From: Paracoccaceae bacterium
GTDB taxonomy: Bacteria; Pseudomonadota; Alphaproteobacteria; Rhodobacterales; Rhodobacteraceae
Assembly: GCA_019911965.1 (NCBI GenBank)
Contig: JAIOJF010000049.1
Span: forward strand, 1 to 64,000
Length of the DNA stretch: 64,000 bases
Direction of reading: 5' to 3'
Notes under the pieces: model-generated
Told to the model about the DNA's origin: nothing
Seen by the model: the letters and a program-made list of their open reading frames with translations, nothing else
The model's database searches: none
Position numbers and translations under genes: made by a program
Shown here: positions 47,832 through 61,611 of the stretch, piece after piece
How the letters are laid out: the number at the start of each line of letters is the position of its first letter
Numbering within the stretch: the first letter of the stretch is position 1

Positions 47832-49334
47832 ATGCGCCCGAACATCCTTTTGATCATGGCCGATCAGCTTGCCCCGCAATTTACCGGCGCTTATGGCCAT
47901 CCGCTGGTAAAAACCCCGAATATCTCGGCCCTGGCGGCTCGCGGCACGCGGTTTGATGCCGCCTATTGCAACGCGCCACTATGTGCGCCGTCGCGGTTCA
48001 GTTTCATGTCGGGGCAATTGGTGACGCGGATTGCGGCCTATGACAATGCCTCGGAATTTCCCGCCACGGTGCCAACCTTTGCGCATTACCTGCGTGCAGC
48101 GGGCTATCGCACCTGTCTGGCGGGCAAGATGCATTTCGTCGGCCCCGATCAGTTGCACGGGTTTGAAGAACGTGTGACCACCGATGTCTACCCGTCCGAC
48201 CATGCCTGGACGCCGGATTGGGAAGCCCCGGACGAGCGGATCGACAAGTGGTATCACAACATGGATTCGGTGCGCGAGGCCGGCCCCGCCGCCACCACTT
48301 TCCAGATCGAATATGACGACGAGGTGGCGTTCTTCGCCCGCCGCCGGATTTTCGATTATGCCAAGGCAAACGTGCAGCCGTTCTGCATGGTCGCCAGTTT
48401 CATCCATCCGCATGATCCTTATGTCGCGCGGCCGGAATGGTGGAACCTCTACGACGATGCCGAGATCGACATGCCCGATACCGACTATTCGGTCGATCCG
48501 CATACCGCCCGCCTCAGGCACGGGATCGAGGCGGATGTGGTCGCGGTATCCGATCAGGATATCCGCAACGCCCGCCACGGCTATTTCGCCAATACCTCGT
48601 ATTTCGACAGCAAGGTCGGCGAGTTGGTGCAGGCGGTGGACGAGGCCGGGATGCTGGACAATACCATCGTCATCGTCACCTCGGATCATGGCGACATGCT
48701 GGGCGAGCGTGGTCTTTGGTACAAGATGAACTTCTTTGAGCATTCCGCGCGGGTGCCGCTGGTGATTGCCGGGCCGGGGATCGCGCAGGGCATATCGGGC
48801 AATCCGTGTTCGCTGGTGGATATCTTGCCGACGCTTCTGGATATCGCAGGAATCGATGACAGCGCGCTGGGGATGCCGGTGGATGGCCGATCATTGCTGC
48901 CTGCGGCCCGGGGCGAGGGCGATACCGGCGACGAGGCGATCGGGGAATATTGCGCCGAATGTGCCAGTGATCCGATCTTCCTGATCCGCCGCGGGGATTG
49001 GAAATACATCCATTGCGACGCCTACCCGCCGATGCTGTTCAACATCGCGGACGATCCCGCCGAAAAGGTCAACCTGGCGACGGATCCGGCCCATGCCGAC
49101 CGCGCCGCCGCCTTTGCCGCCGAGGTTGCCACCCGCTGGGACAGTGCGGCCATCAAGACGCATGTCATCGCCACCCAGAAACAGCGCCGCGCCGTGCATG
49201 AGGCGATGCAGTCGGGCAAGCTGGTCAGTTGGGATTACAACCCGCCGCGCGATGCCGCCAATGAATATGTGCGCAACCACATGGACTGGACCGAGGCCGC
49301 CGAACGCAACCGTTTTCCGCCCTTCCGGCGGTAG
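47832..49334 (+). CDS. betC: choline-sulfatase
   Basis: A 500-residue type I sulfatase. The formylglycine motif is C51-A-P-S-R55 (LCAPSRFSFMSG), metal ligands are seen in IMADQ at the start and SDHGDMLGERG, and the C-terminal extension typical of BetC (SWDYNPPRDAANEYVRNHMDW) is present. It hydrolyses choline-O-sulfate to choline and sulfate, giving a second betaine precursor beside carnitine. No signal peptide, so it is cytoplasmic. No bet oxidation genes are adjacent. Confidence 0.9.
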   Translation: MRPNILLIMADQLAPQFTGAYGHPLVKTPNISALAARGTRFDAAYCNAPLCAPSRFSFMSGQLVTRIAAYDNASEFPATVPTFAHYLRAAGYRTCLAGKMHFVGPDQLHGFEERVTTDVYPSDHAWTPDWEAPDERIDKWYHNMDSVREAGPAATTFQIEYDDEVAFFARRRIFDYAKANVQPFCMVASFIHPHDPYVARPEWWNLYDDAEIDMPDTDYSVDPHTARLRHGIEADVVAVSDQDIRNARHGYFANTSYFDSKVGELVQAVDEAGMLDNTIVIVTSDHGDMLGERGLWYKMNFFEHSARVPLVIAGPGIAQGISGNPCSLVDILPTLLDIAGIDDSALGMPVDGRSLLPAARGEGDTGDEAIGEYCAECASDPIFLIRRGDWKYIHCDAYPPMLFNIADDPAEKVNLATDPAHADRAAAFAAEVATRWDSAAIKTHVIATQKQRRAVHEAMQSGKLVSWDYNPPRDAANEYVRNHMDWTEAAERNRFPPFRR

Positions 49335-51470: not shown

Positions 51471-51577
51471 GCCGCGCCGCGCGTTTTTTCCGAACAATGT
51501 GAAGGTGGGCTGCTTTGTCACTGTTCAAGCGGCGGGCGCGTGGCTAGCCTGCCGGACAGTGATTGCGGAGGATGGAC

Positions 51578-53014
51578 ATGGGCGATCTGATCAGGGAGTT
51601 GAAGGGCATTGTCGGCGCGGGAAATTGCCTTGCGGGGGATGATGACCGGGCGCGCTACGAGGCTGACGTGACACGCCAGCATGTCGGCAAATCGCTGGCG
51701 GTGGTGCGTCCGGGGTCAACTGCCGAGGTGTCGGCGGTGATGCGGCTGGCCAACCGCACGCGTACGCCTGTGGTGCCCTTGTCGGGCAATACCGGGCTGG
51801 CCGGTGGTGGCTATGCCGGGAACGGCGGCGATACCATCATCCTGTCGCTGGAGCGGATGAACCGGGTACTTTCGATCAATACGGCCAGCCGCCTCGCGCG
51901 GGTCGAGGCCGGGGTAATCCTGGCCGATCTGCAAGCCGCCGCCGAGGCCGAGGGGCTGGTATTTCCGCTGATGTTCGGCGCACGCGGGTCCTGCATGATC
52001 GGGGGCAATCTGTCGACCAATGCAGGCGGCTCGAACGTGGTGCGCTACGGCAATACCCGGTCGCTGGTGCTGGGGCTTGAGGCGGTGCTGCCTGATGGCG
52101 AGGTGCTGGACCTGATGTCGGAATTGCGAAAGGACAATACCGGCTACGATCTGAAAGACCTGTTGATCGGGGCGGAGGGCACGTTGGGCGTGATCACCGG
52201 CGCGGTGGTGCAATTGTTCGCGCGGCCCAAGGCCTATGCCACGGCGATGGTCTCGGTGCCCGATATCGCGGGCGGGTTGCAGATACTGCACCGCCTGCAA
52301 TCGGCCAGTGGCGGCGGGGTCGAGGCGTTTGAATACATGCCGCGCGAATATTTCCGCAATCTGCGCGTGGTCGATCCGAAAACACCGGTGTTTATCCCCG
52401 AAGATGCCGAAGTGGGCATCATGATCGAAATCGCCGCCACCTCGGACCGCGACGCGACGCCGGATGCCGATGGATCGGTGCCGGTTGCCGAGGTGCTGAC
52501 CGGCGTTCTGGGCGAATTGATGGAAAGCGGCGCGGTGCTTGATGCCACCGTGGCACAGAATGAAACGCAGCGCGCCCAGATGTGGAAGCAGCGCGAGATG
52601 GCTTTCATGGCGTCGGTGCATCGCGGGCCGGTGATCTCGACCGATGTGGCGGTGCCGCTGGACCGGGTGGACGAATTCCTGCACCGCGCCGATGCCGCCA
52701 TCCTGGCGAAACTGCCGAATGCGGAATTCATCAACGTGGCGCATCTGGGCGACGGCAATCTGCATTATACGATCCTGCCCGATGCCAGTGCGCCGGGGGC
52801 GATTGACGAGGCGGTCGAGGACATGGTTCACACCATCGTCGAGGATGTGGTGGCGGACCTTGGCGGTTCGTTTTCGGCGGAGCATGGCATCGGGCTGCAC
52901 AAGTTGGGGACGATGCGGCGGCGCAAGAACCCGGTGGCGTTGCAGGTGATGCGGGCGATCAAGGCGGCGCTCGATCCCAACAACATCATGAATCCGGGCA
53001 AGACCATTCCCTGA
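51578..53014 (+). CDS. GlcD-like FAD-linked 2-hydroxyacid dehydrogenase
   Basis: A 478-residue flavoprotein of the same type as the one at 36057: FAD segment PLSGNTGLAGGG, SCMIGGNLSTNAGG, the metal-site NVAHLGDGNLHYT and FSAEHGIGLHK. I start at MGDLIRELKG because GGAGG lies six bases before that ATG; a TTG and an ATG just upstream are alternatives. It oxidises a D-2-hydroxyacid such as lactate or hydroxyglutarate. It lies between an MFS carrier and a GntR regulator that may control it. Confidence 0.85.
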   Translation: MGDLIRELKGIVGAGNCLAGDDDRARYEADVTRQHVGKSLAVVRPGSTAEVSAVMRLANRTRTPVVPLSGNTGLAGGGYAGNGGDTIILSLERMNRVLSINTASRLARVEAGVILADLQAAAEAEGLVFPLMFGARGSCMIGGNLSTNAGGSNVVRYGNTRSLVLGLEAVLPDGEVLDLMSELRKDNTGYDLKDLLIGAEGTLGVITGAVVQLFARPKAYATAMVSVPDIAGGLQILHRLQSASGGGVEAFEYMPREYFRNLRVVDPKTPVFIPEDAEVGIMIEIAATSDRDATPDADGSVPVAEVLTGVLGELMESGAVLDATVAQNETQRAQMWKQREMAFMASVHRGPVISTDVAVPLDRVDEFLHRADAAILAKLPNAEFINVAHLGDGNLHYTILPDASAPGAIDEAVEDMVHTIVEDVVADLGGSFSAEHGIGLHKLGTMRRRKNPVALQVMRAIKAALDPNNIMNPGKTIP

Positions 53015-53036
53015 AGCCATTGCCGAACCGGCCGCA

Positions 53037-53071
53037 TTTGGTATATTTGGGGCTGATCTAAATATACCAAA
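53037..53071. promoter_or_regulatory. perfect GntR operator
   Basis: Perfect 12-base arms TTTGGTATATTT (53037-53048) and AAATATACCAAA (53060-53071) around 11 bp, ending ten bases before the GntR start codon. It overlaps the ribosome-binding region, so binding would block its own gene. Confidence 0.8.
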
Positions 53072-53080
53072 AGGGCCGCA

Positions 53081-53722
53081 ATGGCTGCGCAATTGTCGGA
53101 AATCCAGGTCTATGTGCTGCGCGAGATCGTCGAGGGACGTTTGTCGCCCGGCGACCGCATCGACGAGGCGGCGATTGCATCGCGGTTCGGCGTGTCGAAA
53201 ACCCCGATCCGCGAGGCGATCCTGCAACTGGAAGCGCGCGGCGTGGTCGAAAAGCGCCCTCGGGCCGGTGCGGCGGTTGCAGGGCTGACGCCGGAAGAAC
53301 TGATCGAGTTTCTGGAACTGCATTCCGAACTGGAAGGTGCCGCAGCCTATCACGCGGCACGGCGGGCGACGCCATCGCAATTGCAAGCGCTGGAAGATGC
53401 CGCCGGGGCCTATGAAGCGCAGGTCGCGGCCGGGGCGCAGGGGACCTATGATCTGAACCTGGCCTTTCACCTGGCGGTGTTCGCCTGTTGCAACAACAAC
53501 GCACTGCAACTGGAACTGAACATGACGGGTGTTCGCCTGGTCGCCTATTTCCGTGCGCAGGAAGGGTTGCGGACGGGCACCGGCACGGCGGTCGATGAAC
53601 ACCGCGACATCGTCCGGGCCATCCGCGAAGGCCGGGCCGATGACGCCCGCGCCGCGATGCGCCAGCATGCCGAGATTTCATCGGATATCCTGCTGGATGT
53701 GCTGGCCCTGATGAAGGCCTGA
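53081..53722 (+). CDS. GntR-family regulator (FCD type)
   Basis: A 213-residue regulator. The winged helix-turn-helix is at residues 5-70 (IDEAAIASRFGVSKTPIREAILQLEARG) and the FCD ligand domain covers 75-205, with histidines in LAFHLAVF and QHAEIS that usually bind a metal. Such regulators often sense organic acids, which fits the preceding hydroxyacid genes. Its stop codon abuts the stop codon of the convergent marR gene with no base between. Confidence 0.9.
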   Translation: MAAQLSEIQVYVLREIVEGRLSPGDRIDEAAIASRFGVSKTPIREAILQLEARGVVEKRPRAGAAVAGLTPEELIEFLELHSELEGAAAYHAARRATPSQLQALEDAAGAYEAQVAAGAQGTYDLNLAFHLAVFACCNNNALQLELNMTGVRLVAYFRAQEGLRTGTGTAVDEHRDIVRAIREGRADDARAAMRQHAEISSDILLDVLALMKA

Positions 53723-54154
53723 TCAGGTAATCCGGTCAAGCAGTTGCAAGAGCAACGCCGCCTCGGCCTGGCTGAGCGGGGCCAGTGTTTCGGCGGTGAT
53801 GTCATGCGCCCGCGCCGCCAGATCGCGGTAAGCCGCCCTGCCCTCGGGGCTGAGATCGACGATGGTGCGGCGGCGGTCCACCTTGTCGCGCCCGGTGGTC
53901 ACGAGGCCACGCTTCACCAGACGGTCAACCACACCCTTGACGGTGGCCGCATCCATCGCCGTCAGCCGCCCCAGCGCGTTCTGCGATAACGGCCCCGTGT
54001 CACACAGCTTGGCCAGCACGGCGAACTGGGTCGGCGTCAGGTCGCCGATGCGGGCGGAAAAGATCGCCAGATGCCGCTGCGTTGCCCGGCGCAGGACAAA
54101 ACCGATCTGGTCGTCCAGTCGGTAGGGTGCAGGTTTGTTCGGGTTCGGTTTCAT
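53723..54154 (-). CDS. MarR-family regulator
   Basis: A 143-residue winged helix-turn-helix protein (LTPTQFAVLAKLCDTGPLSQ, then LGRLTAMDAATVKGVVDRLV as recognition part and a DRRRTIVDLSPEG wing). It is divergent from the molybdenum hydroxylase operon and probably represses it through the palindrome at 54211. The start MKPNPNKPAPYR is the first reasonable ATG; longer starts would run through the operator. Confidence 0.9.
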   Translation of the reverse strand: MKPNPNKPAPYRLDDQIGFVLRRATQRHLAIFSARIGDLTPTQFAVLAKLCDTGPLSQNALGRLTAMDAATVKGVVDRLVKRGLVTTGRDKVDRRRTIVDLSPEGRAAYRDLAARAHDITAETLAPLSQAEAALLLQLLDRIT

Positions 54155-54180
54155 CGCTCGTGACGGTGTCGCAAAATGGA

Positions 54181-54226
54181 TTGACAGTAAAGGACCTTGA
54201 CCGCAAAATCCATTTGTACACAAATG
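54181..54226 (+). promoter_or_regulatory. promoter and MarR operator of the hydroxylase operon
   Basis: A perfect -35 TTGACA (54181-54186), 17 bases, then a -10-like CAAAAT (54204-54209). Immediately after is a palindrome CATTTGT-AC-ACAAATG (54211-54226), symmetric further out with one mismatch. The palindrome would cover the transcription start, the classical position of a repressor site. Confidence 0.72.
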
Positions 54227-54249
54227 AATTTCCGGATTGGAGCCTTCTC

Positions 54250-55089
54250 ATGGCTTATCATCGCCCGCGCCAATTGTCCGAGGCGCTGTCGCTGTTGCAT
54301 TCGACCAATGCCGTGGTGCTGGCCGGTGGCAGCGATCTGTACCCGGCCATATCGGCGCGGCAATTGCCCGGGGATGTGCTGGACCTGACGGCGATTGACG
54401 CGCTGTGCGGGATATCGCGCGACGATGCTGGCTGGCGGATCGGAGCGACGACCACATGGTCCGCGATTGCCCGCGCCGATCTGCCACCCGCCTTTCGTGC
54501 CCTGCAACAGGCGGCGCGCGAGGTCGGAGCGATCCAGATCCAGAATTCCGGCACGATCGGCGGCAATCTCTGCAACGCCTCGCCTGCTGCGGACGGGGTG
54601 CCGCCGCTTCTGGTGCTGGACGCCGGGGTCGAACTGGCTTCGGCGCTTGGCAGCCGGCGCCTGCCCCTGGCGGAGTTTATCACCGGCGTGCGCCGCACCG
54701 CGCTGCAACCAGGTGAAATCGTGACGGCGGTACATGTGCCGACCAGTGCGGCAAATGGCGTGGCCGCCTTCGGCAAGCTGGGGGCGCGGGCCTATCTGGT
54801 GATCTCGATCGCGATGGTGGCGGTAAGGCTGGAACTGGAACAGGGGCGGATCAGTGCCGCAAGGGTCGCGGTCGGCTCATGCAGCCCGGTTGCCACGCGG
54901 CTGACCGGGTTCGAGGTGGCACTGATCGGCGGCAAAGCGGATCAGCCCGCGCTCTGGCGTGATGCTTTGGCCGAGGACATTTCGCAAAGGCTGACGCCGA
55001 TTGACGATATCCGCGCCGATGCCGCCTATCGCCGCGAGGCGGTGGAAGAACTTGTCATCCGCGCCCTGGCGCAGGCGGTGGCGGCATGA
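54250..55089 (+). CDS. xanthine-dehydrogenase-type FAD subunit (CoxM-like)
   Basis: A 279-residue FAD subunit of a molybdenum hydroxylase. FAD-binding segments are VLAGGSDLYP near residue 25 and TIGGNLCNASPAAD near residue 100. The start MAYHRPRQLS follows the operator region. The end overlaps the next gene (ATGA), so the two subunits are made together. It passes electrons from the iron-sulfur domain of its partner to an acceptor. Confidence 0.9.
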   Translation: MAYHRPRQLSEALSLLHSTNAVVLAGGSDLYPAISARQLPGDVLDLTAIDALCGISRDDAGWRIGATTTWSAIARADLPPAFRALQQAAREVGAIQIQNSGTIGGNLCNASPAADGVPPLLVLDAGVELASALGSRRLPLAEFITGVRRTALQPGEIVTAVHVPTSAANGVAAFGKLGARAYLVISIAMVAVRLELEQGRISAARVAVGSCSPVATRLTGFEVALIGGKADQPALWRDALAEDISQRLTPIDDIRADAAYRREAVEELVIRALAQAVAA

Positions 55090-57767
55090 GCCGGGACATA
55101 ACACAAGTGCGGTTTCGCCTGAACGGTATGGATCAGGCGCTGGAAACCGCGCCCTCGCGGCGGCTGAGTGCGGTTCTGCGCGACGATCTGGGCCTGACCG
55201 GCACCAAGATCGGCTGTGACGCTGGCGATTGCGGTGCCTGCACGGTGCTGGTGGACGGACGAGCGGTCTGTTCCTGCCTGATGCCGGTGGCACAGGCGGA
55301 CGGGGCCGAGATCACCACGGTCGAAGGCCTGGCCGATGCCGGCTTTGCCGCCTTGCAGCAGAGTTTCCTGCGCCACGGCGCGGCGCAATGTGGCATCTGC
55401 ACGCCCGGTATGCTGACCGCCGGGGCGGCGCTTCTGGCGACCACGCCACAGCCGACACGCGCCGAGGTCGAGGACGCCTTGGGCGGGGTTTTGTGCCGCT
55501 GCACCGGCTATGCCAAGATTGTCGATGCGGTGATGCAGGCCAATGTGCCGCAAGCCGCCCCGGCCCTGGTGCCGGTGGGCAGCGCGGTGGGCGCGCGGGT
55601 GGAACGGCTGGACGGTGCCGCCAAGGTGGCCGGGTCCGAGGTTTTCGGCGCGGACGAATACCGCAGCGATGCGCTTGAGGTGCGCGCGATCCGCTCGCCG
55701 CATTATCACGCCGCCTTCGGCTTTGGCGATCTGGCGGGCTGGCAGGCATCGCATCCCGGTGTGGTGGCGGTGCTGACTGCCGCCGACATTCCCGGCCAAA
55801 ACTGCTTTGGCACCATTCCGGCCTTTGCCGATCAGCCTATGCTTGCCGAGACCACCGTGCGGATGCGCGGCGAGGCGGTGGCGCTGGTGGTGGGCGAGGC
55901 GGAGGCGATCCGCGATCTGAGCCTCGATCTTTTTCCCGTCACCTGGCAGGCCCTGCCGCATGTGCTGGATACCACGCCCGCACTGGCCCAAGACGCGCCG
56001 CAACTTCATGCCAGCCGAACCGGGAACGTGATGACCAGCGGGCTGGTGCGCAGCGGTGATGCCGAAGCGGCGCTGCGCGAGGCCGCCCACAAGGCCAGCG
56101 TCAACTTCCGCACGGCTTACGTCGAACATGCCTATATCGAGCCCGAGGCCGGTATCGCCTGGCTGGACGGCGACATGCTGGTGATCCAGGCCTGCACCCA
56201 GGCGCCGGTGATGGACCAGGAAGAAACCGCGAAACTGCTGGGCCTGCCCAAGGATCGGGTGCGGATCATTCCATCGGCCACCGGCGGCGGCTTCGGCTCG
56301 AAACTGGATGTCTCGCTGCAACCGCTGATCGGGCTGGCGGTGCTGAAGACCGGGCGGGCCTGCCGGATGGTCTATTCGCGTCAGGAATCCATGACCTCGA
56401 CCACCAAGCGGCACCCTTCGCAGGCGGTGGCGCGGGCGGGGTGCGATGCCGAGGGGCGGATCACCGCGCTGCATTATCGCGGCGATTTCAACACCGGGGC
56501 CTATGCCTCGTGGGGGCCGACAGTGGCGGGCCGGGTGCCGGTTCATGCCTCGGGTCCGTACCGGGTGGCGAATTACGATGCCGAGGCGCGGGCGATCCAT
56601 TCCAACGGCCCGATCTCGGGTGCGTTCCGGGGCTTCGGCGTGCCACAGGCGGCGCTGGCACAGGAAATGCTGTTTGAGGATCTCGCACTGGCGGGCGGCT
56701 GGGACCGGCTGGAGTTTCGCCTCAACAATGCGCTGCGCGACGGTGACAGGGCGACCTTCGGGCAGGTTCTGCGCTCGGTCGGGATCGCCGATTGCCTGAC
56801 GGCGTTGCAGCCGCACTGGCAGGCCCTGCTGGTGGAAACCGCTGCCTTCAACGCCGCCAATGCGAACCGCAAGCGCGGCATCGGCGTGGCGTCCTGCTGG
56901 TATGGCTGCGGCAATACCGGCCTGTCCAATCCATCGACCATCCGCGCCGGGGTAACCCATGCGGGCCGGGTGGTGCTGCACCAGGGGGCGACGGATATCG
57001 GCCAGGGTGCCAATACCGTCATCACCCAGATCTTCGCCGATGCGGCGGGCCTGTCGCTGGCGGATATCGATCTGATCGGAGCCGATACCTCCCTGACGCC
57101 CGATTGCGGCAAGACCTCGGCTTCGCGCCAGACCTTCGTGACCGGGCGGGCGGCGGAAAAGGCGGGCCGTGCGTTGCGGGCCAAATTGTCCAATTCCGGC
57201 GAAGGGGCGGCGTGGCGCAGGCTGGTGGCGGACATGCCGGCGGATGCCCTTGGCTACGCGATCTCGGTCGAGGAAACATATGATCCGCCGACCAAACCCC
57301 TGGATGCGAATGGCCAGGGCGAGCCTTACGCGGTTTACGGCTATGGCGCGCATCTGGCCGAGGTCGAGGTGGATATGCGGCTGGGCAATGTGAAGGTCCG
57401 CCAGTTGATCGCGGCGCATGATCTGGGCCGCACCATCAATCCTTTGCTAGCGGAAGGCCAGGTCGAAGGTGGCGTGGCGCAGGGGCTTGGTCTGGCCCTG
57501 ATGGAGGAATACGTGCCGGGGCGCACCGAGAACCTGCACGATTACCTGATCCCGACATTCGGCGACATGCCGCGCATCACCTCGATCTTCATCGAAAAGC
57601 CCGAGCCGGAAGGCCCGTTCGGCGCAAGGGGGCTGGGCGAGCATGTGCTGATCCCGACCGCACCGGCGATCCTGAACGCCATCCGCCACGCCTCGGGCGC
57701 GCGGCTCACGCAAGTGCCGGCGCTGCCCTATCGGGTGCTGGCGGCGATCCGGGAGGCTCGGACATGA
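55086..57767 (+). CDS. fused 2Fe-2S and molybdenum subunit of a hydroxylase
   Basis: An 893-residue fusion. Residues 1-155 form the two [2Fe-2S] domains (C44-x4-C49-x2-C52-x11-C64, then C102, C105, C137, C139). Residues 170-893 form the molybdenum domain with the cofactor segment GATDIGQGANT and the catalytic glutamate in ARGLGEHVLIP. This family hydroxylates N-heterocycles or aldehydes with water as the oxygen source. Its context (6-hydroxynicotinate-reductase-like gene) suggests a nitrogen heterocycle such as nicotinate. No XdhC-type maturation gene is nearby. Confidence 0.88.
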   Translation: MSRDITQVRFRLNGMDQALETAPSRRLSAVLRDDLGLTGTKIGCDAGDCGACTVLVDGRAVCSCLMPVAQADGAEITTVEGLADAGFAALQQSFLRHGAAQCGICTPGMLTAGAALLATTPQPTRAEVEDALGGVLCRCTGYAKIVDAVMQANVPQAAPALVPVGSAVGARVERLDGAAKVAGSEVFGADEYRSDALEVRAIRSPHYHAAFGFGDLAGWQASHPGVVAVLTAADIPGQNCFGTIPAFADQPMLAETTVRMRGEAVALVVGEAEAIRDLSLDLFPVTWQALPHVLDTTPALAQDAPQLHASRTGNVMTSGLVRSGDAEAALREAAHKASVNFRTAYVEHAYIEPEAGIAWLDGDMLVIQACTQAPVMDQEETAKLLGLPKDRVRIIPSATGGGFGSKLDVSLQPLIGLAVLKTGRACRMVYSRQESMTSTTKRHPSQAVARAGCDAEGRITALHYRGDFNTGAYASWGPTVAGRVPVHASGPYRVANYDAEARAIHSNGPISGAFRGFGVPQAALAQEMLFEDLALAGGWDRLEFRLNNALRDGDRATFGQVLRSVGIADCLTALQPHWQALLVETAAFNAANANRKRGIGVASCWYGCGNTGLSNPSTIRAGVTHAGRVVLHQGATDIGQGANTVITQIFADAAGLSLADIDLIGADTSLTPDCGKTSASRQTFVTGRAAEKAGRALRAKLSNSGEGAAWRRLVADMPADALGYAISVEETYDPPTKPLDANGQGEPYAVYGYGAHLAEVEVDMRLGNVKVRQLIAAHDLGRTINPLLAEGQVEGGVAQGLGLALMEEYVPGRTENLHDYLIPTFGDMPRITSIFIEKPEPEGPFGARGLGEHVLIPTAPAILNAIRHASGARLTQVPALPYRVLAAIREART

Positions 57768-57801
57768 GGGCGGGTGATCTGGCCTTCCATCGCGGCCATT
57801 C

Positions 57802-57846
57802 TGGCACGGGGGGCACCCCGGGCCGCGCCCCGCTGGCCGACAGGCG
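57802..57846 (-). repeat. dispersed intergenic repeat, copy 2
   Basis: 45 bases that, on the minus strand, match copy 1 (39640-39685) with one indel and one substitution. It fills much of the 135-bp gap between the hydroxylase and the reductase-like gene, so it may separate or modulate their transcription. Confidence 0.75.
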
Positions 57847-57902
57847 ATCCTCCGAGGGCAGGCAGGTTGCCCTTTTCACAAACCCCAACCCGGATGGCAC
57901 AG

Positions 57903-59372
57903 ATGACTGACAGCCGCGACACCCGCCCAGAGAAAATCCGCTGCGATGCCTGCCCGGTGATGTGCTACGTTGCCGAAGGCAAGGCCGGGGCCTGCGATCG
58001 CTACGCCAATGAAGGCGGGAAGATCATCCGCTGCGATCCCCTGACCATCCTCGACGCCCGCATCAAGGCCGGTGACGAGGTGAAGCCTTTTCTGAAGGCC
58101 GACTGGGACGGCTCGATCGTCGAGACCGGCCAGAGCTTCGTCAGTGCCATCGGGTCCGGCACCACCTATCCCGATTACAAGCCCGCGCCCTTCATCGTCA
58201 GCCAGATGATCGACGGCGCGGATATGGTGACGGTGGTGACCGAAGCGATCTTTTCCTATTGCGGTGCCAAGGTGAAGATCGACACTGACCGGCACCTTGG
58301 CCCGGAAGCGGCAATGGTCCGGGTGGACGGCGAGGCCATCGGCCATGTCATGACATCGGAATACGGCAGCCAGATGCTCTCGCTCGGCGGGGTGGATCAC
58401 CTGACCGGCGGCAGCAAGGCCGAAGGCCGGGTGACCTGCGATGCGCTGATGCGGCTGTGCAACCGCGAGGCGGTGGAGATGTCGGTGGATAACGGCTCGA
58501 CCGTGGTGGTGCAGGCCGGCCAGCCGCCTATCGTTGATGGCAATCTGGAACACCGGATGCGGGTCGGCTGCGGGTCGGCCACCATCGGCATGTTCGCCTC
58601 GCAATGGCGCGGGCTGGTGGACGAGGTGGTGGTGGTCGACGATCACATCACCGGCGTGGTCAGCGAACATCAGGCCGGCAAGGTGCTGGGCTGGGAAGAT
58701 ACCGGCATCAGGATCCTCGGGCGGCGCTCGACCCCGGGGCGGTATTTCCAGGTGGCCGATCCGGGGCTGGGCTGGGGCGGTACGAATATCGAGGACCCGC
58801 TGGCGATCCTTGGTGCGTGGAACCCCAAGAAGGGTGCGCGGCCCGGCCTGACGCTGCTGATGGTCTCGACCACCGGCGAGCAATTTGCCTATTACCGGCT
58901 GGACGATAACCTTGATCCGGTGAAACTGCCGCTGCCCGACAGCCTGCGCCGCTCGGTCGACCTGATCGACGAAAACTGCGAGCCGGCCTTGTGTTCGGTC
59001 CTGTTCATGGGTGGTGCGGGCGGCAGCCTGCGTTCGGGCGTGACACAGAACCCGGTGCAACTGACACGCTCGGTCAAGGCGCTGGGAACCCGGGTGACCT
59101 GCGGCGGAGCGCCGGTCTATGTCTGGCCGGGGGGCGGGATCACGCTGATGGTGGATGTGCTGGCGATGCCGGAAGGCTCGTTCGGCTATGTGCCGACCCC
59201 GGCGATTGTGGCACCCCTGGAATTCACCATGAAGCAGGCGGAATATGCGCGGCTGGGCGGGCATATGGCCTCGATCCGCACAATGGCGGATGTGCTGGAA
59301 AGCGGCGGCGAATATGGCCACGATATAAGGGGCATTGCACCGGAGAGGGGCGATCTACCGTGGCGGCGATAA
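57903..59372 (+). CDS. 6-hydroxynicotinate-reductase-like Fe-S protein
   Basis: A 489-residue protein similar to the 6-hydroxynicotinate reductase (Hnr) of nicotinate fermentation. N-terminal cysteines C14, C17, C21, C31 and C44 can bind a [4Fe-4S] cluster. Residues 378-384 read SGVTQNP, close to the S/T-G-A-T motif that receives covalent FMN in RnfG/NqrC-type proteins, with T381 as candidate. No signal peptide. In the known pathway the enzyme reduces 6-hydroxynicotinate to the tetrahydro compound. The substrate here is inferred. I use the ATG at 57903; an ATG three codons earlier is equally possible. Confidence 0.75.
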   Translation: MTDSRDTRPEKIRCDACPVMCYVAEGKAGACDRYANEGGKIIRCDPLTILDARIKAGDEVKPFLKADWDGSIVETGQSFVSAIGSGTTYPDYKPAPFIVSQMIDGADMVTVVTEAIFSYCGAKVKIDTDRHLGPEAAMVRVDGEAIGHVMTSEYGSQMLSLGGVDHLTGGSKAEGRVTCDALMRLCNREAVEMSVDNGSTVVVQAGQPPIVDGNLEHRMRVGCGSATIGMFASQWRGLVDEVVVVDDHITGVVSEHQAGKVLGWEDTGIRILGRRSTPGRYFQVADPGLGWGGTNIEDPLAILGAWNPKKGARPGLTLLMVSTTGEQFAYYRLDDNLDPVKLPLPDSLRRSVDLIDENCEPALCSVLFMGGAGGSLRSGVTQNPVQLTRSVKALGTRVTCGGAPVYVWPGGGITLMVDVLAMPEGSFGYVPTPAIVAPLEFTMKQAEYARLGGHMASIRTMADVLESGGEYGHDIRGIAPERGDLPWRR

Positions 59373-59373
59373 G

Positions 59374-60222
59374 ATGAGCGCGCCCGCGATGCGGATGCTG
59401 GATGCCAAACGGCTGCACCTGCAACACGGCCCGATCGACCTGATTGTCGAGGTCTGGGGGCGCGACCGCGAGGCCGCGCTGCGACAGGCGGCGGTACGGT
59501 TCGAGACCGTGCTGGCGGAACTGGTGGACGAACTTGCAATCCTGCGCCAGCCACTGCGCAAGGGGCAAGGGCCGAGCGGTGCAATTGCCCGCCGGATGGC
59601 CGATGCAGTCGCGCCGTTCGATAGCTTCATCACGCCGATGGCAGCGGTTGCCGGGGCGGTGGCGGACGAGGTTTGCGCCGCGATGGTGGCGGGCATGCGG
59701 CTGGACCGGGCCTATGTGAACAATGGCGGCGATATCGCGGTCTGGCTGGCCGAGGGGCAGCAACTGACGGCCCTGATCCATGATCGCGGCGATGCCGGGC
59801 GGGTGGTGCTGCGCCACCGCGACCGCGCGCGTGGCATTGCCACCTCCGGGCGGGGCGGACGCAGCCACAGCCTCGGGATCGCCGATGCGGTGACGGTGCT
59901 GGCGGGCAGTAGTGCTGCGGCGGATGCGGCGGCGACGCTGATTGCCAATGCGGTCGATCTGCCCTTGCATCCCGGTATTGACCGGGTGCCGGCCTCGGAT
60001 CTGTCACCCGACAGCGATCTTGGCACGCGGCTGGTAACGCGCCATGTTGCAGGGCTGACCGCTGGCGATGTCGCACAAGCGCTGGATGCCGGGCGGCGCG
60101 TTGCCGACAGGATGCTGAAACAGGGTCTGATCGAAGCGGCGACGCTGTTCTTGAACGGGGAAACGCGGCTCTCGGGCGCATTCCCGCAAACCGAACCCAG
60201 GGAGATGGCCAATCATGCCTGA
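59374..60222 (+). CDS. UPF0280 family protein, ApbE-like
   Basis: A 282-residue protein of the uncharacterised UPF0280 family. Its centre resembles flavin transferase ApbE: NNGGDIAVW (116-124), TSGRGGRSH (157-165) and DAVTVLAGSSAAADAAAT (171-188) follow the order of ApbE segments. It starts one base after the reductase-like stop and overlaps the next gene. I infer a flavin-related task, perhaps attaching flavin to the reductase before it. Direct evidence is lacking. Confidence 0.82.
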   Translation: MSAPAMRMLDAKRLHLQHGPIDLIVEVWGRDREAALRQAAVRFETVLAELVDELAILRQPLRKGQGPSGAIARRMADAVAPFDSFITPMAAVAGAVADEVCAAMVAGMRLDRAYVNNGGDIAVWLAEGQQLTALIHDRGDAGRVVLRHRDRARGIATSGRGGRSHSLGIADAVTVLAGSSAAADAAATLIANAVDLPLHPGIDRVPASDLSPDSDLGTRLVTRHVAGLTAGDVAQALDAGRRVADRMLKQGLIEAATLFLNGETRLSGAFPQTEPREMANHA

Positions 60223-60796
60223 CTTCAGACTGCGCAAGACGATGCTGTTCATCGAGGATATCCACCATGACGGCGGCCCGGTCGCCGAGCATCCGCGGCA
60301 AAGGGCGGCCATGCTGGCGCTGGTCTCGAACCCCTTCGCCGGGCGGCACGAGGGTGATCTGCAATCGGCGATGGACGATCTGAAACCCTTGGGCCTGATG
60401 ATGACCGACCGGCTGATCGCGGCCTTGGGCGGGATTGACGGGATTGACGGCTATGGCAAGGCGGGCCTTGCGGGCGAGGGTGGCGAGCTGGAGCATACCG
60501 CGCTCTGGCATGTCCCCGGCGGCTACGCGATGCGGGCGCGGCTGGGCGAGGCCAGGGCAATCGTGCCATCGGCCATGAAGGTCGGCGGCATGGGCTGCCG
60601 TATCGACATACCGCTGGGCCATATCAACGCCGCCTATGTGCGCAGCCATTTCGACGCGATGGAGGTCGGCGTACCGGATGGCCCGAAAGCCGGCGAATTG
60701 CTGTTCGCACTGGCGATGACCAAAGGCCCGCGCATCCACAGCCGCATGGGCGGGCTGGAAAGCTGGCAGGTGAAGGGCGAAGACGGGTTGCGTTAA
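60215..60796 (+). CDS. amino acid synthesis family protein (DUF1185)
   Basis: A 193-residue protein of the family named amino acid synthesis (DUF1185), function unknown. Conserved-looking parts are MLFIEDIHHDGG at the start, HTALWHVPGGYAMRA, and VGGMGCRIDIPLGHINAAYVR followed by FDAMEVGVPDGP. Its start lies inside the end of UPF0280, with GGGAG upstream, so the two are coupled. It may carry out a hydrolytic or isomerising step on the ring-derived product; this is a guess from context. Confidence 0.8.
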   Translation: MPDFRLRKTMLFIEDIHHDGGPVAEHPRQRAAMLALVSNPFAGRHEGDLQSAMDDLKPLGLMMTDRLIAALGGIDGIDGYGKAGLAGEGGELEHTALWHVPGGYAMRARLGEARAIVPSAMKVGGMGCRIDIPLGHINAAYVRSHFDAMEVGVPDGPKAGELLFALAMTKGPRIHSRMGGLESWQVKGEDGLR

Positions 60797-60808
60797 CGAT
60801 GCCACGAC

Positions 60809-60827
60809 GCCTCCGGCGGGAGTATTT
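60809..60827. terminator. small hairpin with TATTT tail between convergent genes
   Basis: CTCC-GGCG-GGAG followed by TATTT, 13 bases after the DUF1185 stop and before the end of truA. A similar GAGTATTTCCG stretch follows pta. Such CCTCCGGCGGGAGTATTT sequences recur at gene ends in Rhodobacteraceae as far as I recall. Confidence 0.5.
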
Positions 60828-60843
60828 CCGCTAAAAAAGAAGG

Positions 60844-61611
60844 CTACGCGAATGGGTCGTCGGGGTAGGTGACACCGGTAAGGTACAGGCCATGCGGCGG
60901 GCAGACCGGGCCGCAGGCGGCGCGGTCGCGGGCGGCAAGCGCGGTTTTCACCTGGGCGGGTGGCCAGTTTCCGGCACCTACCCGCTCCAGCGTGCCGACG
61001 ATGCTGCGGACCTGGTTATGCAGGAACGAACGTGCCGCAAGGGTAAAGCGGTACTCGGTGCCGTATGGGCCTCTGATTTCCTCGATCTCCAGCCTGTCGA
61101 GGGTCTTGACCGGCGAAGTCGCCTGGCATTGCACCGCGCGGAAGGTGGTGAAATCGTGCTGGCCGGTCAGGTAGCTGGCCGCCGCGCGCATCGCGTCGAC
61201 GTCCAGATCATGGCCGACCTGCCATAGAAGGCCGCGTTCCAGCACCAGCGGAGCGCGGCGGCTGATCAGGCGGAACAGGTAACGTCGCCCGGTGGCCGAG
61301 AACCGCGCGTGGAAATCGCCGGGCACAAGAGCGGCGGCCAGAACCGCCACCGGGGCGGGTTTCAAATGGAAGTTCAGCGCCTGTGACAGACGAAACGGGT
61401 CCCAGTCGCGCTGCATATCGCAATGCACCACCTGGCCTGTGGCATGCACACCGGCATCGGTGCGTCCGGCAGCAGCGATGGACGGCACGTTTGCATCCAG
61501 CTTGCGCAAGGCTTCTTCCAGCGCCTGCTGCACGGATGGATGCGCCTGCTGGCGCTGCCAGCCGCAGAACGGCGATCCGTCATATTCCAGTTTGAGGGCA
61601 TAGCGTGGCAT
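60844..61611 (-). CDS. truA: tRNA pseudouridine(38-40) synthase
   Basis: A 255-residue enzyme that makes pseudouridine in the anticodon arm of tRNAs. The catalytic aspartate is in the [17 protein letters not shown] motif. The N-terminal [18 protein letters not shown] and C-terminal [13 protein letters not shown] segments are typical. The start [10 protein letters not shown] is the conserved N-terminus; a longer open frame upstream lacks similarity. Confidence 0.96.

Follow-up and report, generated by a model that had tools for sequence, protein, structure and literature searches.

Gene content of the locus

We analyzed a stretch of 64,000 nucleotides from a Paracoccaceae bacterium (contig JAIOJF010000049.1; here called the window) and concentrated on a gene set at positions 53723 to 60796. 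In this set, a regulator gene of the MarR family stands beside five plus-strand genes, which encode a two-protein molybdenum hydroxylase, a protein resembling 6-hydroxynicotinate reductase (Hnr), and members of the families UPF0280 and DUF1185 (Table 1). An initial annotation of the sequence had reported the same genes, and all of them were found where it had placed them. Most likely, these genes let the bacterium degrade nicotinic acid (vitamin B3) by a route that is known in outline.

The five plus-strand genes overlap or nearly abut, with the exception of a 135-bp gap before the Hnr gene. The latter probably starts at the ATG at 57903 rather than at the GTG at 57774 given in a mechanical list of open reading frames, because its relatives begin near KIRCDACP. 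No transporter gene adjoins the cluster genes in the window. At gathering thresholds, Rfam returned nothing in positions 53000 to 61500, and a terminator scan yielded two hits against a shuffle mean of 3.2, so that we make no claim of a terminator.

Table 1. Genes and regulatory features of the locus
Feature	Position	Strand	Basis or remark
MarR-family regulator	53723-54154	minus	Pfam MarR_2/MarR; divergent from the catabolic genes
Sigma-70-like promoter TTGACA-17-CAAAAT	54181-54209	plus	Consensus match only, 10/12 positions
Operator-like inverted repeat CATTTGT-AC-ACAAATG (CATTTGTACACAAATG)	54211-54226	strand-neutral	Directly downstream of the -10 box
Molybdenum hydroxylase FAD subunit (MoFAD; XDH-type; candidate nicotinate 6-hydroxylase)	54250-55089	plus	Pfam FAD_binding_5, CO_deh_flav_C
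Molybdenum hydroxylase, fused 2Fe-2S and molybdopterin subunit	55086-57767	plus	Pfam Fer2, Fer2_2, Ald_Xan_dh_C, MoCoBD_1/2
Hnr, 6-hydroxynicotinate-reductase-like Fe-S protein	57903-59372	plus	Cysteine pattern and annotation of relatives
UPF0280, predicted ApbE flavin-transferase fold, candidate Hnr maturation factor	59374-60222	plus	NCBIfam NF003322, 347 bits against a cutoff of 290
DUF1185 / AA_synth, A-type, candidate accessory protein	60215-60796	plus	PF06684, E value of 7e-63

Distribution of enamidase and HyuA in genomes with Hnr

A route through 1,4,5,6-tetrahydro-6-oxonicotinate (THON) is assigned to Eubacterium barkeri and Azorhizobium (PMC9304392). As we propose for the window, the E. 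barkeri pathway consists of a hydroxylation followed by the action of Hnr, giving THON (PMC9304392, PMC3511419). The two systems differ in that E. barkeri has separate hydroxylase subunits (the chains of 3hrd), whereas the window encodes a fused 2Fe-2S/molybdopterin subunit, and in that E. barkeri has the enamidase 2vun, whereas none was found in the genome of the window, whose gene set includes UPF0280 and DUF1185. In this genome, which is 99% complete, the top enamidase match had just 25% identity (E value of 8e-5). A two-subunit protein, HyuAB, encoded elsewhere in the genome, on contig C33, appears to be a better candidate for the missing ring opener than DUF1185. Its HyuA is 71% identical to a HyuA from a Fuscovulum cluster.

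We followed the two candidate ring openers through two sets of genomes. The class sample comprised 190 alphaproteobacterial genomes, 28 of them with Hnr, and the phylum sample 329 genomes, 22 of them with Hnr; four Hnr genomes were common to both, which leaves a union of 46. The class sample was queried with an enamidase and with a cluster-type HyuA from Mesorhizobium. By thresholds of our own setting, an enamidase was called strong at 60% identity or more and HyuA was accepted at an E value of 1e-200 or less. In the class sample, nine Hnr genomes carried a strong enamidase (65 to 74% identity) and 19 carried HyuA; none of these 28 had both or neither. The phylum sample gave nine Hnr genomes with enamidase only, 11 with HyuA only, two with both (G323 and G391), and none with neither. 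Moreover, no HyuA match of this sample (13 in all) and no enamidase match of at least 61% identity (11 in all) fell outside the Hnr genomes. Across the union, the counts were 17 for enamidase only, 27 for HyuA only, two for both, and zero for neither. Weak enamidase relatives (37 to 44%) in G084, G088, G128, G209 (a second copy), G433, and G483 were left uncounted, and a single stop codon lay inside the aligned range of the enamidases of G106, G172, and G187, the HyuA of G192, and the UPF0280 of G208.

In 13 of 19 class-sample HyuA genomes, no more than about 10 kb separated HyuA from Hnr or, where contigs were broken, from the UPF0280/DUF1185 genes next to Hnr; the genome of the window is among the other six. 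We also collected 80 loci, the best 80 of at least 594 matches to an Hnr alignment in named or titled genome records, among which close relatives are over-represented. Their flanks often end at contig ends, and counts of neighbors are lower bounds. HyuA was present in 20 of these loci and an enamidase within the flanks of none. With 37 HyuAs from other Hnr genomes, the C33 HyuA shares 57 to 73% identity; with the three remaining copies listed, the figure is 34 to 43%. In a genome of the same genus (L181), MarR and the operator separate the MoFAD gene from a gene, about 2.1 kb away, for a HyuB that is 85% identical over the part available. Two further HyuA-like genes of the window's genome, on contig C9, were set aside at 34 to 35% identity to the C33 copy; a fourth, weaker match (29%) lies on contig C12.

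An operator-like repeat upstream of the same genes

The inverted repeat in front of the hydroxylase genes (CATTTGTACACAAATG) contains the sole perfect TTTGTNNACAAA of the 64-kb window. In the 19.9-kb C33 stretch, a perfect TTTGTNNACAAA likewise occurs once, 30 bp upstream of the start of HyuA. With one mismatch allowed in 111 sequences, 61 of 80 matches (50 of the 111 sequences) stood shortly before MoFAD, hyuA, fnr, livK, or sibling genes; zones of this kind account for 10.8% of the bases. Seven control motif arms gave 1 to 12 matches in the same zones, the highest being TGTTT with 12 of 44. Since part of each such zone may be intergenic and the sequences are relatives of one another, these controls weigh more than the base fraction. 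The observed pattern suggests that HyuAB belongs to the nicotinate regulon. Positions 53700 to 60900 hold two promoter-like matches against 0.9 on average in shuffles, and the promoter is weak taken alone for this reason. Of the "clear promoter and operator" described initially, it is the operator-like repeat that gained support, by recurring before the same genes in other genomes.

HyuAB as a candidate lactamase

Among curated families, HyuAB is closest to caprolactamase. HyuA scored 498 bits and HyuB 298 bits, below the NCBIfam cutoff of 1000 for each of the caprolactamase alpha and beta subunits; by these scores, the pair is placed in the same superfamily as caprolactamase without being caprolactamase itself. 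In alignments read by eye, the residues of HyuAB that correspond to the CapB metal site (Asp41, His99, Asp102, and His124) and to the ATP-site residues Asp11 and Asp295 of CapA are identical. Both sites have been shown to be important in CapAB. HyuAB thus has in common with CapAB (6yra) and OplAB two subunits, an Asp-His-Asp-His metal site, and the ATP-site aspartates, and differs from them in its scores below the caprolactamase cutoffs and in its proposed substrate, THON. THON is a six-membered lactam, as is delta-valerolactam. Strong activity on delta-valerolactam has been reported for OplAB (PMC11033972). Distribution, regulation, and family chemistry together point to HyuAB as the enzyme that would open THON.

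Several observations weigh against this assignment. HyuAB of the window's genome is unlinked to the cluster. On C33 (L138:4190-11705), it is flanked by genes foreign to the nicotinate set, among them two glutamine-synthetase-like genes and, judged by eye, a glutamine-amidotransferase gene; therefore, it could serve another lactam. A HyuA score of 498 against 1000 bits likewise means that the exact substrate is not fixed. HyuA was found at our threshold in 6 of the 162 class-sample genomes that lack Hnr, enamidase and HyuA stand together in the Hnr genomes G323 and G391, two HyuA genomes (G088 and G128) also have a weak enamidase relative (37 to 41%), and G106 is the sole class-sample genome with a strong enamidase and no detected Hnr. 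Related genomes in the samples are not independent, and the partition between enamidase and HyuA could partly follow lineage. As for the operator, the signal in relatives needs the one mismatch, and perfect copies of TTTGTNNACAAA elsewhere numbered four in 1.70 Mb (89 loci) against 0 to 2 in five simple shuffles. On the grounds of the flanking genes and of the six Hnr-free genomes with HyuA, nicotinate could be degraded while the C33 HyuAB serves another lactam or a hydantoin and an unrecognized enzyme opens THON. We regard this as unlikely, given the operator in front of HyuA, which in many relatives is also physically linked to the cluster, and the presence of enamidase or HyuA in every one of the 46 Hnr genomes with both in just two. 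HyuAB as the probable THON lactamase is the reading we retain. The glutamine-synthetase-like flanks were not seen in the linked clusters that we inspected.

Constancy of the module and its probable substrate

UPF0280 adjoins Hnr, by coordinates, in all 28 class-sample Hnr genomes, with contig ends interrupting in two (G088 and G111). It scored above the NF003322 cutoff in 26 class-sample genomes, every one of them with Hnr; four matches below the cutoff in Hnr-free genomes (G123, G133, G145, and G167) were not counted. Among the 80 loci, we observed a relative of the fused molybdenum subunit in 72, of MarR in 57, of a liv-type permease in 53, of a nicotinamidase in 39, and of a ferredoxin-NADP reductase in 20. 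A representative nicotinamidase passed NCBIfam NF008623 with 217 bits against 174. A Fuscovulum plasmid has the gene order of the window, MarR through DUF1185, with a liv transporter and hyuAB coming next, and records of Neorhizobium and Paracoccaceae plasmids have annotated nicA/nicB no more than 12 kb from Hnr. Three Sulfitobacter plasmids and one Comamonadaceae plasmid carry an amidohydrolase that is 65 to 100% identical to the Sulfitobacter pontiacus copy, which matched the E. barkeri enamidase 2vun with an E value of 1e-106 over 383 residues, nearly its full length. A multi-pass membrane-like protein of about 460 to 490 amino acids, for which neither Pfam nor NCBIfam gave a match at the thresholds applied, lies beside livK in many loci (as at L045:14897-16270 and L047:4737-6200), and its cluster occurs in 21 of 90 sequences.

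The nicotinamidase, nicA/nicB, and enamidase genes of sister loci indicate nicotinamide and nicotinate, and nicotinate is well supported as the substrate. The reductive pathway of nicotinate type suggested initially is thus strengthened by these genes, by the ferredoxin-NADP reductase, and by the constancy of the module. In the window itself, no NicB relative was found; NicC and NicX were not searched for, nor was the rest of the genome searched for NicAB or the maleamate route. Alternatively, the cluster could apply the same chemistry to the degradation of another N-heterocycle, such as pyrazinoate or a hydroxypyrimidine, without nicotinate being the real substrate. The molybdenum hydroxylase is not close to any single characterized enzyme. 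The top PDB match of its fused subunit is an aldehyde oxidoreductase (1dgj; E value of 4e-126), which counts against nicotinate, and the PDB relatives also include nicotinate dehydrogenase (3hrd_A; E value of 7e-73); in addition, the PncA model also covers pyrazinamidase. With a 2vun-type enamidase and annotated nicotinate dehydrogenase genes in sister clusters, another heterocycle seems quite unlikely to us. Moreover, strain SG-6C, reported to have such a cluster, metabolizes 6-hydroxynicotinate via the nicotinic acid pathway, as judged from growth and resting-cell assays (PMC3511419).

DUF1185 as a candidate accessory protein

The PDB relatives of DUF1185 are 3byq and 2qtp, which belong to the same family, PF06684. 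The solved structures are hexamers with a chorismate-mutase-like fold, and their genomic context links them to amino-acid metabolism (PMC2954203), whereas the context of the window copy is that of nicotinate. In the class sample, DUF1185 occurred in 26 of the 28 Hnr genomes, with none found in G090 and G208, and in 12 of the 162 Hnr-free genomes, one of the 12 below the cutoff. A neighborhood comparison of the Hnr, UPF0280, and DUF1185 families had been proposed with the initial annotation; in ours, Hnr and UPF0280 were constantly together (28/28), and DUF1185 was also found without them. For Hnr and UPF0280, this disposes of the refuting case named with that proposal, in which the families lie apart in most genomes.

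DUF1185 exists in two types, and the window copy is assigned to the A-type because, of two copies in tandem in Sagittula, the first is the one with which it shares more identity. Both types, that is, two copies, were present in 6/6 enamidase loci. Of 38 HyuAB-bearing stretches, 23 had the A-type only, three had both types, and 12 had none; 5 of these 12 (L138, L190, L192, L193, and L198) had been fetched around a HyuA that does not adjoin Hnr. Plasmid loci L046, L047, and L053 combine HyuAB with both types, a pairing that we otherwise saw only beside enamidase.

DUF1185 directly follows Hnr and UPF0280 in the window with no enamidase near, and its hexameric structures (PMC2954203) make an active site at subunit interfaces possible, but that it opens the THON ring in the place of the enamidase, as had been put forward initially, is very improbable, since it coexists with a strong enamidase in 9/9 class-sample Hnr genomes that have one, is doubled in 6/6 enamidase loci against mostly one copy or none in HyuAB loci, and was not found in 2 of the 28 Hnr genomes. 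In the best explanation of its distribution, DUF1185 would be an accessory protein and HyuAB the ring opener; a side role in handling the enamine is conceivable at most. Gene order alone should not make DUF1185 a ring opener.

UPF0280 and Hnr

No Pfam family, those of ApbE included, matched the UPF0280 protein of the window at an E value of 0.001 or less, in which it differs from the ApbE/Ftp FMN transferases. They have in common the fold of its AlphaFold2 model (pLDDT of 94). With Foldseek, the model matched 7esc (E value of 4.6e-4) and 3pnd_D (E value of 4.8e-4). VIA-align gave Z scores of 13.3 to 15.6 over 200 to 214 residues with the ApbE/Ftp structures 4xgv, 4ig1, and 3pnd; the next unrelated structures scored about 8. 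Its nearest solved relative is the uncharacterized DVU1097 (2o34), after which the ApbE/Ftp flavin transferases rank. The predicted fold is that of an ApbE flavin transferase. Across 44 sequences, no variation was seen at N116-x-GGD120, S158-G159, or A183-D184..A187-T188, which may include counterparts of the catalytic and Mg-binding residues of ApbE; we assign no catalytic His. Because of the tight link to Hnr, our best guess is a service to Hnr by UPF0280, most likely as an ApbE-type flavin transferase or as a flavin-handling factor. UPF0280 was not mentioned in the open-access literature that we searched.

For Hnr, two alignments, of 22 and of 40 sequences and each including the window, show no variation in the N-terminal pattern C14-x2-C17-x3-C21-x9-C31, which would fit a [4Fe-4S] cluster. 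Many plasmid records name its relatives 6-hydroxynicotinate reductase. Hnr had no Pfam match at an E value of 0.001 or less, no PDB sequence below 0.1, and by sequence profile none below 0.27. Its predicted model was middling (pLDDT of 75, from 40 similar sequences); Foldseek found nothing at an E value of 0.001 or less and VIA-align nothing above a Z score of 3.6, which does not amount to a new fold. The Hnr of E. barkeri is said to carry a bound flavin. By eye, an SAT stretch in Hnr resembles an ApbE target motif; its last residue is T or A in relatives, and we claim no attachment site. In G052, an otherwise complete genome, Hnr is split over two frames (C1:2969823-2971222) with the neighbor genes present. 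The Hnr module also occurs in the SAR116-cluster genomes L064, L099, L116, and L117, and no DUF1185 was found in the last three.

Proposed pathway and relation to known systems

We hold with fair confidence that the window contains the core of a reductive nicotinate-degradation regulon, in which HyuAB opens the lactam, UPF0280 acts as a flavin factor for Hnr, and DUF1185 is accessory. Our observations are the gene content, the co-occurrence, the operator pattern, the predicted UPF0280 fold, and the conserved catalytic residues; the reactions, without exception, and what each protein does directly are what we infer. The molybdenum hydroxylase would convert nicotinate to 6-hydroxynicotinate. Hnr, probably fed by reduced ferredoxin and provided with a flavin service by UPF0280, would reduce the latter to THON. 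HyuAB, an ATP-dependent two-subunit lactamase encoded on C33 behind the same operator-like repeat, would then open THON instead of an enamidase, and loss of ammonia from the resulting enamine would yield 2-formylglutarate, which would lead towards glutarate. We put forward only tentatively the joint claim that a majority of the sampled proteobacteria that have the reductive nicotinate route (27 of 46, those with HyuA alone) use HyuAB as a nonhomologous replacement of enamidase and that Hnr is matured by a cytosolic ApbE-fold flavin transferase of its own, UPF0280. If this is true, the UPF0280 family gains a function.

Although the gene set was initially called undescribed, such a nicotinate cluster was already described in 2012 for Azorhizobium caulinodans ORS571, Bradyrhizobium japonicum USDA110, Rhodopseudomonas palustris HaA2, and strain SG-6C, whose Hnr homologue is 42% identical to that of E. 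barkeri (PMC3511419). The reductive route in Azorhizobium was known earlier, as cited there. The published cluster is described as encoding the first three steps together with an ABC transporter, with THON and then glutarate downstream. Its two unknown proteins would correspond to UPF0280 and DUF1185, the proteins of the two clusters being compared by description only. On the same basis, the window differs in having no adjoining transporter, in a genome without a close enamidase, and with HyuAB elsewhere. Reductive nicotinate degradation is a known pathway, and the window represents a new variant of it in which the ring-opening enzyme has probably been replaced. Our searches of the open-access literature found no report of HyuAB in nicotinate degradation. 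HyuAB offers a testable identity for a ring-opening step that annotation leaves empty in many genomes.

Hnr relatives are common, at least 594 in one scan, and many named loci among the best 80 belong to Rhodobacterales, which are often marine, and to Mesorhizobium. This composition bears on vitamin B3 recycling in the sea and around roots.

Neighboring genes

Directly upstream of the cluster, positions 51563 to 53722 of the window encode a GlcD-like FAD-linked oxidase and a GntR/FCD regulator. Farther upstream, a sulfatase gene at 47832 to 49334 matched the choline-sulfatase model TIGR03417 with 713 bits against a cutoff of 433.

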